A program made the position numbers and the translations under genes. The notes under the pieces are model-generated. The model had not been told where the DNA came from, searched no databases, and saw only the letters and a list, made by a program, of their open reading frames with translations. 64,000 nucleotides of DNA from NCBI GenBank assembly GCA_020847975.1, contig JADLBD010000144.1, positions 1 to 64,000 on the forward strand, written 5' to 3'. Of the stretch, positions 31,949-38,167 are shown one piece after another. Each line of letters starts with the position of its first letter. Positions within the stretch are counted from its first letter, which is position 1. Source of the stretch: Bryobacterales bacterium (GTDB taxonomy: Bacteria > Acidobacteriota > Terriglobia > Bryobacterales > Bryobacteraceae).

Positions 31949-32076
31949 GTGAGCAGGATTTATTGAGACCTGGGGCGGCGCGGACGCGTCTTTGGAGTGT
32001 AGGTGGACCTGGCATAGGTTACTATAGTGTGTAGATGCTGGCGGAGTGTCTCCGCCGGCTTCTGAAAGGCTGGGCA

Positions 32077-33321
32077 ATGAATCGCCGCTTCAAACTGTTT
32101 GTAGTTACCTCCTCCAGTTGTCTGGTGGTGCTACTGATGATTGGCGCCGTCAAGGGCCGGAGCGCATCGCCGGATGACGCCTACAAGCACCTTGCCGTGT
32201 ACACCGAAGTGCTTTCGCGGATCAAGAGCGATTACGTGGAAGAACCGGACATGAAGAATGTCACGTTAGGAGCGCTGAACGGGCTGCTCGAGTCGGTGGA
32301 TCCGTATGCCAGCTATCTAAACGCGGACCAATACAAGCAATACGTCAAGTTCAAAGACAACCGGAAGGCCGGCGTTGGGCTGATCCTGTCGAAGAAGTTC
32401 GGCTACCTGAACGTGGTGGACGCGATTCCGGGAACGCCAGGGGACAAGGCAGGGCTGGCGACGGGGGATGTGTTGGAGGCGATTGGCGGAGTGTCCACGC
32501 GGGACATGCCGCTTGCCTATGCGGACCTGCTGCTGCATGGGGATCCGGGGACGAGCGTGGAACTGACCGTATTGCGGGTGCGGAAGGGGACCGATCCGCA
32601 GAAGGTCGGCCTGGTGCGGGCGATCACGAAACTGCCCGCGGTGGCGGCGAAGATGCTGCCGGACGGGGTGGGGCAGATCGTTTCCCCGAGCATGGAAGCG
32701 GGCAAGGCGAAAGAGATTGCTTCGGCGGTGAAATCGCTCGAGAAGCAGGGGGCGCAGAAGATTGTGCTGGACCTGCGGAATGCCGCGGATGGAACGCCGG
32801 AGGAAGGCGTCGCGGTAGCGAACCTCTTCCTCGAGAAGGGGCTGATGGCGTACCTGCAAGGACAGAAGGTGAGCCGGCAGAATTTTGACGCGGAAGCCTC
32901 GAAGCAGATCTGGAAGGGGCCGCTGGTGGTGATCACGAACCGGGGCACAGCGAACGGAGCGGAGATTGCGGCGGGGGCTCTGCTGGACAACAAGCGCGCC
33001 GAGGTGGTGGGGGAGCGGACCTACGGCGATGCGGCGGTGCGCAAAGCGATTCTGATGGACGACGGCGGGGCGGTGATTCTTTCGACGGCGAAATACTACT
33101 CGCCTTCGGGGAAGGCGTTGCAGGATACCGGGGTGACTCCCTCGGTTCCGGTGGTGGAGCAGGAAGCGGCCGCGGCAGATCCGGATGTGGAGCCGCCGGC
33201 CGAGCCGGCGCAACCCGAGCAGAAAAGCGGGGAAGACATTCTCCTGAAGAAAGCAATCGAAGTCTTGACTTCAGGCAAAGCTGTGGCGGTGAATCACAGC
33301 GTTGATCGTTGGGATCGTTAA
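32077..33321 (+). CDS. S41 (CtpA/Prc-like) protease homologue lacking catalytic Ser and Lys
   Basis: 414 residues; the ATG at 32077 has AAAGG about 9 nt upstream and begins a membrane or signal segment (RFKLFVVTSSSCLVVLLMIG). The family layout is complete: helical start (DAYKHLAVYTEVLSRIKSDY), GLLESVDPYASYLNADQY, a PDZ domain (about 90-170, GTPGDKAGLATGDVLEAIGG) and the protease core. In active homologues the nucleophile sits in GSASASE and the base 25 residues later in TFGKG. Here these read GTANGAE and TYGDA, so N293 and D318 occupy the two positions at exactly that spacing. Proteolysis is therefore unlikely; it may bind substrates through the PDZ domain. A Pro/Glu-rich tail follows. Confidence 0.88.
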   Translation: MNRRFKLFVVTSSSCLVVLLMIGAVKGRSASPDDAYKHLAVYTEVLSRIKSDYVEEPDMKNVTLGALNGLLESVDPYASYLNADQYKQYVKFKDNRKAGVGLILSKKFGYLNVVDAIPGTPGDKAGLATGDVLEAIGGVSTRDMPLAYADLLLHGDPGTSVELTVLRVRKGTDPQKVGLVRAITKLPAVAAKMLPDGVGQIVSPSMEAGKAKEIASAVKSLEKQGAQKIVLDLRNAADGTPEEGVAVANLFLEKGLMAYLQGQKVSRQNFDAEASKQIWKGPLVVITNRGTANGAEIAAGALLDNKRAEVVGERTYGDAAVRKAILMDDGGAVILSTAKYYSPSGKALQDTGVTPSVPVVEQEAAAADPDVEPPAEPAQPEQKSGEDILLKKAIEVLTSGKAVAVNHSVDRWDR

Positions 33322-33354: not shown

Positions 33355-33663
33355 ATGCCTCTGTATGAATACCGATGCAAACAATGTGACCGTGTTTTCG
33401 AGGTGATTCAGAAGTTTTCCGACTCCCCACTCACAGTCCATGAGGGTTGCGGCGGCGAGGTGGAACGATTGCTGTCCGCGCCCGGGTTGCATTTCAAGGG
33501 AACCGGGTGGTACGTGACGGACTACGCCCGGTCAGGCGGGTCGAAGGCGGGCAAGAGCGAATCGAAGAACGGCTCGACGGAGAGTAAGAGCGAGGGTTCC
33601 GGAAGTTCGAAGCCTGCCGCCGCTTCGACCGAGACATCGAAATCCACCGCAAAGAAGGATTGA
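33355..33663 (+). CDS. FmdB-family zinc ribbon protein
   Basis: 102 residues beginning MPLYEYRCKQCDRVFEV, the hallmark of FmdB-type putative regulatory proteins. The first zinc knuckle is C8-x2-C11. The second reads H29-E-G-C32 where the family usually has CPxC, so His may replace a Cys ligand. Residues 48-65 (KGTGWYVTDYARSGG) are also typical of the family. The C-terminal 40 residues are low-complexity Ser/Lys/Glu. A TTG at 33334 could add seven residues, but MPLYEY is the conserved start. It follows the S41 homologue by 33 bp and may be co-transcribed. Confidence 0.88.
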   Translation: MPLYEYRCKQCDRVFEVIQKFSDSPLTVHEGCGGEVERLLSAPGLHFKGTGWYVTDYARSGGSKAGKSESKNGSTESKSEGSGSSKPAAASTETSKSTAKKD

Positions 33664-33753: not shown

Positions 33754-36453
33754 ATGAACTGTCTCTACTGCGGGCAAAAGCTTTCCAGTGACCGGGATCC
33801 GGGGCTTGGTTCCTTCTGCTCGGCAAATCATCAGCGCAAATTTGGAGTGGATATCCGGGTGCTGCTGCAACTGCAGAACCCCGGCAGGCTCGAGATCCCG
33901 CGGCCGGAATCCACCGCGTCTTCGAACTGTCTTTACTGCGCGCAGCCGTTGAGCATTCGCAAGCGGCTGAAAGGGTGGCAGTTCTGCAATTCCGAACATG
34001 AAGATCTGTACTACCGGCAGTGGAACGAGCAGGCGATGGCGCGGCTTGGGGGGGCGGCGGCACTCGAGGAGGACCTGTACGGAGTGGATCTCACGGAGGG
34101 GGATCCACAAGCGATTCCGCGCTGCCAGTACTGCGACGAGCCGTTGAGTGTGGGCAGGCGGCTGAAGAGACGCAGGTTTTGCAGCGAGGAGCATGAGGAG
34201 CAGTACCGGCAACAGCAAAGCAGCCTGGTTTTTTCGCGGCTGCGGCTGGAGGACCGGCCAAGGGCGCGCCCCAGGCGGTTGTGGGATCCGCGGAACACGG
34301 AAGGCTGCGGAGGGTTCGAGCAGATGCCGGTTCCGCCAAAGCCGGGACGGCTGACGTTATATCCGGCCGGGGGGATACAATTCTCGATTTCGCCGTCGAT
34401 TTTGAGATTCGGCGGAGAAATTCTGAAGCTGGCTTCCGGCGGGGCGGTAGCGCGTCCGCGATTGCGAGGAATTGCTCTGGGCGGGAAGGAAGTGGCGGAG
34501 GCGGGGAAGGTGGAACTGAAGATTGGCGTTCCCCCGTGCCCGGCCGTAATCTGCCGGCTGGGGGAACCAGCGCCTGAGCCGCCCGGGAGACTGATCGTGT
34601 TGCCAGGCAGCGCCGGATGTACGGCGATTCGGGAAGACCTGCCGGAGGCAGCGTTTGTGGCCGAGGAACTGCTGCGGCTGCCGCCGGATGCGGGTTTTCT
34701 GGACTACCCGCGGGCACAAGTACCGGAGCGTTTCCGGCGCCCGCTGTGGATGCCGCGCATGGCGGTTTCTTCGCTTGGGCCGGTTGTGGCGGAGGGTTCG
34801 GAAATTGGCTCGCGCATTGGGGCCGGGGTGCTTTCAGCCGTCAGCGATGAGCCATCAGCCAAGCCGATTGGGCGGATGGAAAGCCCATCGATGATGGCCG
34901 GGTGCGGATACGTCACCATAGCTCCGAATGGGAGCCAGCCGCCGGCGCTGGTTTCCGAGAGGACGTGGATTGGCGTGGAGGAGAGCCCGTTGTTGCCGCG
35001 GGCAATGGGGCCACCCTGGGGTGGCGAGCGGGTGGCGGGCAGCGGGTATTCCAAGCCGCGGGTGTTTGCGAGGATTGCAGGACGGCGCGTGCCTGGTTGG
35101 TTCGAGGGAGAGAGCGGCGAGTTGCACATGCCGCGCCAGCCGAAGGAGGCGCCGCATCACGCCGCGCCCGAAGGTGGTCCGGTGGCGGTGTCGAGCCGCG
35201 TGGTGGATCGCGGACGGGCGGGAAGGGCGGAACGGGATTGGGCGGTTGCCAGGATGGAGGCTGTGCTTCCGGATCCGGATAAGATCCGGAGTGAAGAGCA
35301 GTTGAAGGCGAGCGTTCCGCGTGATGTGGCTCGCGGGAAGGATTGCCGCCGCGATGCGCCAGGGGAAACGTTCCTGGCCTCGGGCTCTCACGAGGCGATA
35401 TTTCCGCGAATGGGCGCAGTGGTGTCCGAAGGTAAATGGGGCGCTGCCGGATTCCGCGCGGTGGGGCGAACGAGGGAGTTTTCCATCTTGCCGCGTGGAA
35501 CGGCCGATGGCTTCCTGACCATGGCCGCGGGGTTGGCGGTTCCGAAGATGGAAGGCATGCGAGGCGCGGAGTTGATCCGGAGCGCCGGCTGCTGGAATCC
35601 GCTGCCCGTGGGACTGGAGGCCGCCAAGCGTTCGAGCGCGGCCGCATGGAAGCAGGAGCCGGCGCCGGTCCTGGTGCGGCGGGCCCTGCCATGGAAAGCT
35701 CCGGCGTGGACTGGCCGCGGCGGGCTGGCGGCGTTGACCAGTCTTGCGCCCAGCGGTTGGCGTGGAACGACGCAAGGGCTGGCGTGGCAGGCGGAGGGAG
35801 GAAGCCGGCAGATAGTCTATCCGGCTTGGCCATTGGCTTCGACGAAAGGTAGACCATTGCAGCGGGGTCATCTGCATCTGATGGCGGCACGTGGACTCCA
35901 ATCGAATCGGGTTGGGAACGGATCTTGTGGTGAATGGAGGGGTGGTCCAGGACCACTGCTGCCGGGCGCGGGGCAGAGCCGGCCGGAGGCCGCAGTTTTG
36001 GGGCGTGGGTATTTGTGGCCCGTGGGTACGAATCCGAAGCGCTGGGGGTGGGCGGTGAGGGGAGAGCCCCGATTCGCGGGAGCGGGCCGTGTGAAGATGC
36101 CGAAACCTCTGGTGAACGCAGGGGCGGGGCTGTTGCGGCGGGCGGGAGATCGGGTTGGGGAATGGACCGCGAAAGCGGGCGTGTGGACTGCAACGAGCGG
36201 AGAATGGCGCGAGCGGCCGCTGACCCATCCACAGCTGCCCGGGGTGAAGGATGAGGGACACTTCCCAGGGATGCGGCAGGGTGGGGCAGCCGCTCTCGGG
36301 TGGAGTGCGGGCGGGCAGGAAACCGGAGGGTGTGCCCGGGAACTGGTGATGGCCTACCGGTTTGTGTTTCCGGCGGCAGCGGCAACGGAGTTGGAGGTGT
36401 TGCCTGCAAGGCGGCGGTCGGGGGCTAGGGGGAAGATAGTAGTCCTGCGGTAA
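33754..36453 (+). CDS. 899-residue protein with three N-terminal C-x2-C-x15-C-x3-H zinc fingers
   Basis: The N-terminus holds three copies of a short zinc-binding unit: C3/C6/C22/H26, C59/C62/C78/H82 and C124/C127/C143/H147. All have identical spacing, and copies two and three share the cores CAQPLSIRKRLKGWQFCNSEH and CDEPLSVGRRLKRRRFCSEE. The pattern recalls FCS/TRASH-type treble-clef fingers. From about residue 180 the chain is Gly/Ala/Arg/Pro-rich without clear domains; short stretches look like beta strands (RLTLYPAGGIQFSI, FVFPAAAATELEVL). There is no signal peptide. GGGGGA lies about 11 nt before the ATG. Long antisense frames exist from 34855 but lack features of a gene. The function is unknown; metal-dependent protein or nucleic-acid binding is possible. 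Confidence 0.7.
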   Translation: MNCLYCGQKLSSDRDPGLGSFCSANHQRKFGVDIRVLLQLQNPGRLEIPRPESTASSNCLYCAQPLSIRKRLKGWQFCNSEHEDLYYRQWNEQAMARLGGAAALEEDLYGVDLTEGDPQAIPRCQYCDEPLSVGRRLKRRRFCSEEHEEQYRQQQSSLVFSRLRLEDRPRARPRRLWDPRNTEGCGGFEQMPVPPKPGRLTLYPAGGIQFSISPSILRFGGEILKLASGGAVARPRLRGIALGGKEVAEAGKVELKIGVPPCPAVICRLGEPAPEPPGRLIVLPGSAGCTAIREDLPEAAFVAEELLRLPPDAGFLDYPRAQVPERFRRPLWMPRMAVSSLGPVVAEGSEIGSRIGAGVLSAVSDEPSAKPIGRMESPSMMAGCGYVTIAPNGSQPPALVSERTWIGVEESPLLPRAMGPPWGGERVAGSGYSKPRVFARIAGRRVPGWFEGESGELHMPRQPKEAPHHAAPEGGPVAVSSRVVDRGRAGRAERDWAVARMEAVLPDPDKIRSEEQLKASVPRDVARGKDCRRDAPGETFLASGSHEAIFPRMGAVVSEGKWGAAGFRAVGRTREFSILPRGTADGFLTMAAGLAVPKMEGMRGAELIRSAGCWNPLPVGLEAAKRSSAAAWKQEPAPVLVRRALPWKAPAWTGRGGLAALTSLAPSGWRGTTQGLAWQAEGGSRQIVYPAWPLASTKGRPLQRGHLHLMAARGLQSNRVGNGSCGEWRGGPGPLLPGAGQSRPEAAVLGRGYLWPVGTNPKRWGWAVRGEPRFAGAGRVKMPKPLVNAGAGLLRRAGDRVGEWTAKAGVWTATSGEWRERPLTHPQLPGVKDEGHFPGMRQGGAAALGWSAGGQETGGCARELVMAYRFVFPAAAATELEVLPARRRSGARGKIVVLR

Positions 36454-36544: not shown

Positions 36545-38167
36545 ATGATCAGCTCGATACCGCTATTGGCGACGAATGACCCCTCCCCTGAGTCCGTCTT
36601 GCCGGCTTCGAAGGAAACGGGCGCCTTGGCCGGGGCCGTGTCATTGCATTTACAGGGACGGCGGGAGGAAGCCCTGGAAGCGCTCGAAAGCCAGCCGGAG
36701 GAGGCGATTCCGCTGCCGGAAACGCACTTTGCGCGCGGCCGGATTTGCTACGAACTGGGGCGGTACGAAGAGGCCGTTACGGGATTTGAGCGATTCCTGG
36801 CTATCTATCCGAACCACAAGCCGGCACGCTTCAACCTGGCGCTGTGTTTACAGTACGTTTCGAGATGGGAGGAGGCGGAGGCGCAGTTCCGGGCGGTGCT
36901 GGCGGCGGAGGAAGGGCACCATGCGGCACGGCAGGGATTGGGAATCTCCCTGTTGCATCAGCAGAAATTTCATGCGGCGCTCGAGGTGTTCGAGCAACTG
37001 TGCCTGGAGCAGGCTGATGAATCCGCTTTGTTCGGCCGCGCGGTGTCGTTGCAGTTGCTGTCGGAAGTAGACGCGGCGATGCAGGCTTACCAGCGGGTTC
37101 TGGAAGTGAATTCGGGGGCGCGGGAGGCGCTGATCAATCTGGTCACGCTGCAGCGGCAGTGCAGGAATACGGACGGGCTGAAGGAGTGTTGCGAGCGTCT
37201 TCTGGCGCTGGACCAGAACTCCGAAGCGGCGCGTGAGGGGCTGGCGACTGCCGCGTTTTGGGAAGGGGACTACAGGGCGTGCGCCGAGCACTGCACGCGG
37301 CTGCTCGAGACGCATCCCGAGAGTTTCGAACGCTGGTCAAACCTGGGGTTGGCGTGGCAGAAGGCAGGGGAACTCGACAAGTCGGCGGAAGCCTACGAGC
37401 GGGCGGCGGCATTGCGGCCGGAGGCGGCGGAATCGCACTCGAGCCTGGGCCTGGTGCATCAGCAACTCGGCCGGTTGGAGGAGGCGCAACAGAATCTGGA
37501 ACAGGCGCTCACACTGACTCCTGATTCGGCGGAGCTGCTGCTGAACCTGGGGTATGTTCATGAGCAGCAACAGCGGTGGGAAGATGCGGAGGCAGCGTAT
37601 CAGAAGCTGACGGCGGCTCATGCGGGGAATGCGGAAGGGTGGTTCCGGCTGGGCTATGCATGCTTGCAGCGCCATAATTTTGGGGCCGCGGCGGAAGCCT
37701 TCGCCGCCTGCGTGCAACGGAATCCGGAATGGCGCGAGGCGCGAATCAATTTGGGGCTGGCGTATCAGAAGGCGGGAGACCGCGATTCGGCGAAGAGCAC
37801 GCTCGGGCAACTCCTTGCGGCTGAGCCCGGATGTACGGACGCAATGCGCGGGCTGGCCGCGATCGCGCTCGAGGAGGGCAACGACGAAGAGGCCTTACGG
37901 TTTCATCAGCAATTGATGGACGCGGGCGAGCGGACTTCCGACGTGCTCTACAACTCGGCTCTGTTGTCGCAGAAGGCCGGGCGGCTGGAGGAAGCCGAAC
38001 GCCTGTACCGGGAGAGCCTGGCACAGCGGGCGGGATTTGCCGAGGCGCTGTTGAACCTGGGCCATACGCTGGCGGCGCTCGGAAGGGATGGCGAAGCCAG
38101 AGAATCGTGGCTGGAAGCGATTCGGGTGAAGCCGGAGCTGGCGACGGGGTATTTCCTGGCGGAGTAG
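36545..38167 (+). CDS. Cytoplasmic TPR-repeat protein
   Basis: 540 residues, AGGAG 7 nt before the ATG, no signal peptide. From about residue 30 to the end the chain is almost entirely tetratricopeptide repeats, roughly fourteen 34-residue units with the expected Gly/Ala/Pro pattern (for example ERWSNLGLAWQKAGELDKSA, AESHSSLGLVHQQLGRLEEA, AEALLNLGHTLAALGRDGEA). It is a protein-interaction scaffold; the partner is unknown. It follows the zinc-finger gene by 91 bp in the same direction. Confidence 0.85.
   Translation: MISSIPLLATNDPSPESVLPASKETGALAGAVSLHLQGRREEALEALESQPEEAIPLPETHFARGRICYELGRYEEAVTGFERFLAIYPNHKPARFNLALCLQYVSRWEEAEAQFRAVLAAEEGHHAARQGLGISLLHQQKFHAALEVFEQLCLEQADESALFGRAVSLQLLSEVDAAMQAYQRVLEVNSGAREALINLVTLQRQCRNTDGLKECCERLLALDQNSEAAREGLATAAFWEGDYRACAEHCTRLLETHPESFERWSNLGLAWQKAGELDKSAEAYERAAALRPEAAESHSSLGLVHQQLGRLEEAQQNLEQALTLTPDSAELLLNLGYVHEQQQRWEDAEAAYQKLTAAHAGNAEGWFRLGYACLQRHNFGAAAEAFAACVQRNPEWREARINLGLAYQKAGDRDSAKSTLGQLLAAEPGCTDAMRGLAAIALEEGNDEEALRFHQQLMDAGERTSDVLYNSALLSQKAGRLEEAERLYRESLAQRAGFAEALLNLGHTLAALGRDGEARESWLEAIRVKPELATGYFLAE

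Follow-up and report, generated by a model that had tools for sequence, protein, structure and literature searches.

A conserved CtpA-like S41 protein of Acidobacteriota has lost its catalytic site and may serve as a non-proteolytic partner of peptidoglycan enzymes

The CtpA protease of Pseudomonas aeruginosa, a CTP-3 member of the S41A peptidases, is activated by LbcA and degrades cell-wall hydrolases. It is described as a hexamer possessing an N-terminal and a C-terminal dimerisation region (NDR and CDR; PMC8764530), the former of which is bound by LbcA (PMC11021448); the latter source places the catalytic dyad at Ser302/Lys327, a separation of 25 residues that is shared by Ser309/Lys334 of CtpB. 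The P. aeruginosa ctpA gene lies between envC and a yibQ homologue, the operon is given as envC-ctpA-PA5135 (PMC12569750), and YibQ of Escherichia coli is the septal deacetylase SddA, itself linked to envC (PMC12440217). CtpA of Helicobacter pylori and CtpB of Bacillus subtilis are also active proteases, the inactivated forms among the structure matches, such as 9ku3 and 4c2e, being laboratory mutants, and the term "inactive CtpA", most frequent in papers on P. aeruginosa, refers there to a laboratory mutant or to the resting state. Catalytically dead relatives that are likewise kept for regulation have been described in other protease families, among them the iRhoms and CspA and CspC of Clostridioides. 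Within the S41 fold, IRBP (RBP3) is a non-peptidase homologue, and to our knowledge it has neither a CtpA-type NDR nor an operon of this kind. For an inactive CtpA family in Acidobacteriota, we found no description in a search of the open-access literature by listing and abstract.

The gene studied here lies in a 64,000-nucleotide stretch of contig JADLBD010000144.1 (assembly GCA_020847975.1) from a Bryobacterales bacterium, hereafter the window, in which an open reading frame on the plus strand (32077..33321) encodes a catalytically dead CtpA-like S41 protein of 414 residues. An in-frame ATG is also present at 32035, and the chosen Met1 at 32077 aligns with a methionine in 67 of 80 named Bryobacterales orthologues, a set consisting of the best 80 of 470 relatives found and overlapping in part with the 60 related genomes discussed below. 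Pfam scanning identifies the S41 core (PF03572, 123 bits) and a PDZ domain (PDZ_6, 45.5 bits; residues 113-167, 32413..32577), and the NCBIfam model TIGR00225 scores 205.6, below its cut-off of 218.6. An AlphaFold2 model built on a 62-sequence alignment (mean pLDDT 81.6, pTM 0.75) arranges an N-terminal helix, helices in the place of the NDR, the PDZ domain, the core and a C-terminal helix in the same order as in P. aeruginosa CtpA, so that Pfam, AlphaFold2 and Foldseek together recover the S41A layout of an S41 core, a PDZ domain and N-terminal dimerisation helices. The top Foldseek matches of the model are CtpA of H. pylori (9kub, E 3e-33) and of P. aeruginosa, with B. subtilis CtpB sharing the fold as well (4c2e, E 1e-29), and P. 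aeruginosa CtpA is also the best sequence relative of known structure (255 bits at the top of the PDB matches of the sequence profile); the match to IRBP is far weaker and limited to the core (9frx, 100 bits; 4lur, 41 bits).

Several elements outside the core can be placed on this model. Residues 3-26 (32083..32154, plus strand) form a hydrophobic helix that is probably a membrane anchor or signal sequence; among the 80 named orthologues (best 80 of 470 relatives), 79 have Gly23 and 72 have Gly27. The putative NDR spans residues ~34-92 (32176..32352, plus strand) as helices 34-52, 59-74 and 83-94; we equate it with the NDR of CtpA on the basis of its position and the Foldseek match, and it belongs to a less confidently modelled part of the chain, with block means of 45 to 88 over residues 31-90. 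Just N-terminal to the PDZ domain, Gly101 is kept in 97% of 125 rows of the clade defined below. A C-terminal helix (residues 388-399, 33238..33273, plus strand) sits where CtpA has its C-terminal dimerisation region and, judged by position, may be its equivalent.

The active site tells a different story from the fold. In an alignment with orthologues and two active relatives, Asn293 (32953..32955) and Asp318 (33028..33030) occupy the columns of the catalytic serine and lysine, and their separation of 25 residues matches the dyad spacing in P. aeruginosa CtpA and in CtpB (PMC11021448), which bears out two claims of the preliminary description: that both catalytic residues are replaced, and that their spacing is that of active enzymes. 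That description also held the fold, PDZ domain and flanking motifs to be intact; the first two are, whereas the motifs are not. The oxyanion motif, DLRxNPGGL in active enzymes, has decayed to DLRNAADGT (residues 232-240, 32770..32796, plus strand), and the six-residue signature N236-G238-G239-S293-K318-Q322 reads A-D-G-N-D-R, with Gly239 the sole survivor. Thus the NPGG motif and the glutamine are gone in addition to serine and lysine, leaving neither the Ser-Lys dyad nor the oxyanion NxGG that characterise an active S41A enzyme; the signature is complete in 25/25 active S41 rows of our tree, versus 3/128 rows of the clade. Structural residues have been kept, with Asp232 and Arg234 present in 100%, Glu296 in 99% and Gly317 in 98% of 125 clade rows (family f31 left out). 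Chance or a local sequence error is excluded, since every one of the 80 named orthologues (best 80 of 470 relatives) lacks the dyad. The window protein is almost certainly not a Ser/Lys protease. A specific functional role for Asn293 can be discarded, as 11 residue types occur in its column among 128 rows.

Loss of the site extends throughout the order. An orthologous frame covering at least 317 residues was found in 56 of 60 related genomes and, in one more, split over two contigs; among these 60, G016 gave no match and G051 and G058 only active paralogues. None of the 57 copies has lysine at position 318, and four have serine at 293. The Ser-Lys pair is likewise absent from all 80 named Bryobacterales orthologues (best 80 of 470 relatives), in which column 318 holds Asp (72), Asn (5), Glu (2) or Ser (1), and column 293 holds Gly (36), Asp (14), Asn (11), Ser (9), Ala (6), Arg (3) or Gln (1). 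Aligned in this way, Asp318 is conserved within Bryobacterales and Asn293 is not. Immediately downstream, on the same strand and starting 33 bp past the S41 stop, lies a gene for an FmdB-type zinc-ribbon protein (33355..33663; TIGR02605, 67.5 bits), which is adjacent in 67/80 of the named loci (best 80 of 470), or 66/77 of those with at least 400 bases downstream. Hence the earlier proposal that Asn and Asp might be conserved together with the FmdB neighbour stands for the neighbour and for Asp318, but fails for Asn293. One typical Bryobacterales-type orthologue (63% identity, FmdB adjacent) comes from a record titled Acidimicrobiia bacterium, a title that is probably wrong. In another genome, a cluster match (76 bits) falls inside the FmdB region and probably reflects low complexity.

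The same decay is seen across the sampled phylum. Of 297 genomes, 166 match the orthologue profile at E 1e-70 or better, and one or a few were read per family; 71 of the 131 sub-threshold genomes were re-searched at looser thresholds (15 and 56, alongside 10 other genomes). At least two S41 matches, as would be expected where a short copy accompanies a long active CTP, were obtained in 15/21 and 43/60 of the genomes so searched, and 12 and 20 shorter copies were read. No short copy was found in families f9, f12 and f33 at the thresholds used, which more diverged copies could escape; each matched genome of f9 and f12 has a long active-type match only, and the only frame in f33 is of about 700 residues. 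Among the 128 clade rows, window included, 115 have neither catalytic residue, seven have serine only, three lysine only and three both, with 17 residue types (Lys included) in the lysine column and 11 (Ser included) in the serine column. All three intact rows come from one distant family, f31, in which four of five sampled genomes were read, yielding three intact dyads and one Gly/Lys row. Intact Ser/Lys orthologues, which would have pointed to a recent loss in this copy, are thus confined to three clade rows of that family, and support for a conserved dead protease is strong and reaches well outside Bryobacterales. All four f31 loci read (L215, L315, L316 and L317) have EnvC as a neighbour, and three also have YibQ; the six-residue site is whole in three and lacks only serine in L317, a natural series from intact to dead. 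A 665-residue frame in genome G131 (L295), outside all counts and the tree, has an S41 part without serine and lysine (N-W-G-H-R-Q) and is probably one more member of the dead clade.

Active-type paralogues behave otherwise. They carry Ser/Lys in 51/51 loci and the whole six-residue site in 49/51, which indicates that the loss is specific to the dead gene rather than an alignment fault; as these loci were picked by a dyad already seen or by a long frame, the figure serves to check active-type genes and should not be read as a random sampling. Five further loci outside this set comprise four with Ser/Lys (L261, L285, L286, L292) and L295. In the window's genome, nine S41 matches comprise three CTP-type genes with Ser/Lys, the dead gene and five others, two of which (L006, L007) show a weak match to the clade profile and have no lysine at the catalytic position; the remaining three (L005, L008, L009) do not match it.

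In a phylogeny computed by a quick method with the catalytic columns excluded and rooted by the active side, a clade of 125 rows forms one side of a branch with SH-aLRT 99, the other side holding 23 acidobacterial active paralogues and two alphaproteobacterial S41s; the long rows L275, L281 and L274 are unsure. Five sequences were omitted: L339 (Ser/Lys, 403 residues, no EnvC neighbour), the window protein itself (L010), L325 (96% identical to L204), and L318 and L205 (70% and 66% identical to their nearest rows); all but L339 are counted among the 128 rows. The EnvC-operon CtpA of Sinorhizobium (S.) meliloti falls on the active side, where its partner is an Azospirillum S41 lacking an adjacent EnvC (support 86), and since the tree does not join it to the clade, descent from an EnvC-operon CtpA rests on gene order. 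Parsimony requires two changes of dyad state, and a loss-only history requires nine losses. Repeated loss appears favoured over regain of the dyad in f31, because intermediate states survive: L317 lacks the serine only, L226 keeps the lysine and L224 keeps NPGG. The site has decayed in many different ways between lineages.

The dead gene is under purifying selection, with the dimerisation helices most tightly constrained. In comparisons with the three nearest orthologues, dN/dS (Nei-Gojobori) is 0.069, 0.090 and 0.080, and for residues 30-92 it is 0, 0 and 0.014. Comparing genomes G000 and G007 gives, for the dead protein, identities of 93% in the NDR, 82% in the PDZ domain and 72% in the core, versus 78/90/81 and 72/76/76 for two active paralogues, the second of which shows a small difference. 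Mean pairwise identity (NDR/core) is 0.59/0.48 for 34 dead rows of the window's class and 0.38/0.32 for all 125 dead rows, versus 0.36/0.49 for 24 active rows. Constraint has thus shifted away from the catalytic core and onto the dimerisation helices. Loss of the catalytic residues across orthologues, combined with purifying selection, marks the protein as a conserved pseudoprotease.

Gene order offers a lead to its function. We clustered neighbouring proteins, scanned one member of each cluster with Pfam and then built profiles from the clusters; the recurrent neighbours are an EnvC-type M23 protein upstream, a YibQ-type deacetylase (PF04748) downstream, divergent RuvX and MltG upstream, and a class A penicillin-binding protein (PBP) downstream. 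EnvC is upstream on the same strand in 39/101 clade rows (those with at least 900 bases upstream) and YibQ downstream in 27/94; 15 rows have the complete order EnvC - S41 - YibQ, a position that these deep relatives share with P. aeruginosa ctpA, and divergent RuvX and MltG precede the gene in 38/101 and 33/101. In family f8, a class A PBP gene follows on the same strand in 28/30 genomes (24 of L155-L181, together with L229, L230 and L283, and G144 via L233), more than 1 kb away in four of the 28; the one member scanned has PF00912 and PF00905, and the other two genomes (G316, G308) have no class A PBP within 2 kb. An EnvC, YibQ, MltG or PBP gene lies within 1.3 kb at 104/148 clade loci versus 0/51 active-paralogue loci, a contrast somewhat inflated by the mostly shorter flanks of the active loci. 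FtsE and FtsX were not seen beside EnvC among 10 proteins scanned from six loci. The S. meliloti annotation reads EnvC - S41 - divergent polysaccharide deacetylase, with the S41 dyad intact. Such evidence is correlational, and it suggests an origin in the EnvC operon. In deep lineages (L184-L334) the dead S41 gene often sits between divergent ruvX-mltG and HU-thrS-infC-rplT-pheS, an old neighbourhood that might serve as a lineage marker.

The window's own order departs from this arrangement, and from P. aeruginosa, in that the EnvC and YibQ linkage was not found. YibQ (PF04748) was detected in 0/41 genomes of the window's family and order. The EnvC profile has matches in 29/41 at E 1e-25, and each of the 30 matches listed covers the M23 end only. 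In this lineage the operon thus seems to have been lost while the dead protein persisted, which counts against an EnvC-dependent role. The neighbour seen in Bryobacterales, FmdB, is not a cell-wall gene either, a further point against the reading proposed below. Further downstream, on the plus strand, are a predicted 899-residue frame without Pfam or NCBIfam match (33754-36453), which begins with what look by eye like three repeats of a CxYC...FCSxEHE-like zinc-finger pattern, and a 540-residue protein with many Pfam TPR matches (36545-38167). The TPR protein was considered as an LbcA-like adaptor and rejected, its adjacency to the S41 gene not being conserved in the cluster table.

With moderate confidence, we read the protein as a pseudoprotease that partners peptidoglycan enzymes and that descends, in Acidobacteriota, from the CtpA (CTP-3/S41A) encoded in the envC-ctpA-yibQ cell-division operon; put more generally, the dead CtpA is, on balance, probably a cell-wall regulator. 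It would be held in the periplasm by its N-terminal helix and would dimerise via the NDR, while the PDZ domain and the non-cutting substrate cleft would bind peptidoglycan enzymes, or regulators of these enzymes, by their tails, so that such clients are held or positioned rather than degraded. Our confidence in this binding-and-holding mechanism itself is slightly under even. Likely clients would be the EnvC/amidase system or MltG in deep lineages and, in f8, the class A PBP encoded downstream; for the window's lineage, where the operon partners EnvC and YibQ were not found, some other cell-wall client would have to be supposed. The broader scenario, in which the EnvC-operon CtpA of Acidobacteriota lost catalysis repeatedly but survived as a structural subunit within peptidoglycan machines (EnvC/amidase, MltG, class A PBP), is one we advance tentatively and would not expect to hold in full.

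The preliminary description had envisaged a partner of an active CtpA. Such a partnership is conceivable; gene order points instead to peptidoglycan enzymes. In its most specific form, which we judge unlikely, the dead protein would be a dedicated inactive subunit that uses its NDR to pair with a long active paralogue (about 500-600 residues), replacing the inactive back protomer and gating or targeting the active one. LbcA-bound P. aeruginosa CtpA does have one active protomer per dimer, with the adaptor on the NDR (PMC11021448), conservation of the dead protein peaks in its NDR, and CTP-type genes with intact dyads, three in number, coexist with it in the window's genome. Yet the NDR is the least conserved part of the active paralogues, which is not what a fixed shared interface would give; a second S41 gene was found in none of the 80 named loci (best 80 of 470 relatives), and the active gene is present in families where no dead copy was detected.

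A repurposed S41 fold that, like IRBP, carries a small-molecule or lipid ligand and has no link to the cell wall is improbable: the IRBP chains among the weaker sequence matches do indicate that non-enzymatic S41 folds exist, but the NDR, PDZ domain and C-terminal helix of CtpA are retained here and peptidoglycan genes recur as neighbours. Still less credible is a hydrolase rewired to use other residues in the same cleft, for although Asp318 predominates in Bryobacterales, Arg322 is nearly invariant in the 62-sequence alignment and the clade shows hardly any variation at Glu296 and Asp232, the serine and lysine columns are as variable as described above, the oxyanion motif is lost and no clade-wide replacement nucleophile or base was seen. 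A functionless relic drifting since activity was lost, a notion that the many routes of decay might encourage, is scarcely conceivable, barring a recent relaxation in the window's species, given the low dN/dS, the long frames in 56/60 relatives (57 when the frame divided between contigs is counted) and the presence of the gene in most families sampled, and a recent loss or pseudogene is ruled out by the orthologous frames, the missing dyad in 80/80 orthologues (best 80 of 470) and the dN/dS values.

Acidobacteriota are abundant in soil, and their cell-wall biology has been little studied. CtpA has so far been studied as a protease that removes cell-wall hydrolases; that a large bacterial group keeps it without the protease implies another function worth keeping. 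Any gene of this clade that carries the annotation "S41 peptidase" probably does not encode a peptidase. Families with dead and with intact sites in one and the same operon provide a comparison set. If the broader scenario of repeated loss and retention as a structural subunit is true, a non-proteolytic function of CtpA outlives its protease activity, and the fully equipped form of f31, in the same operon, would be its natural control.
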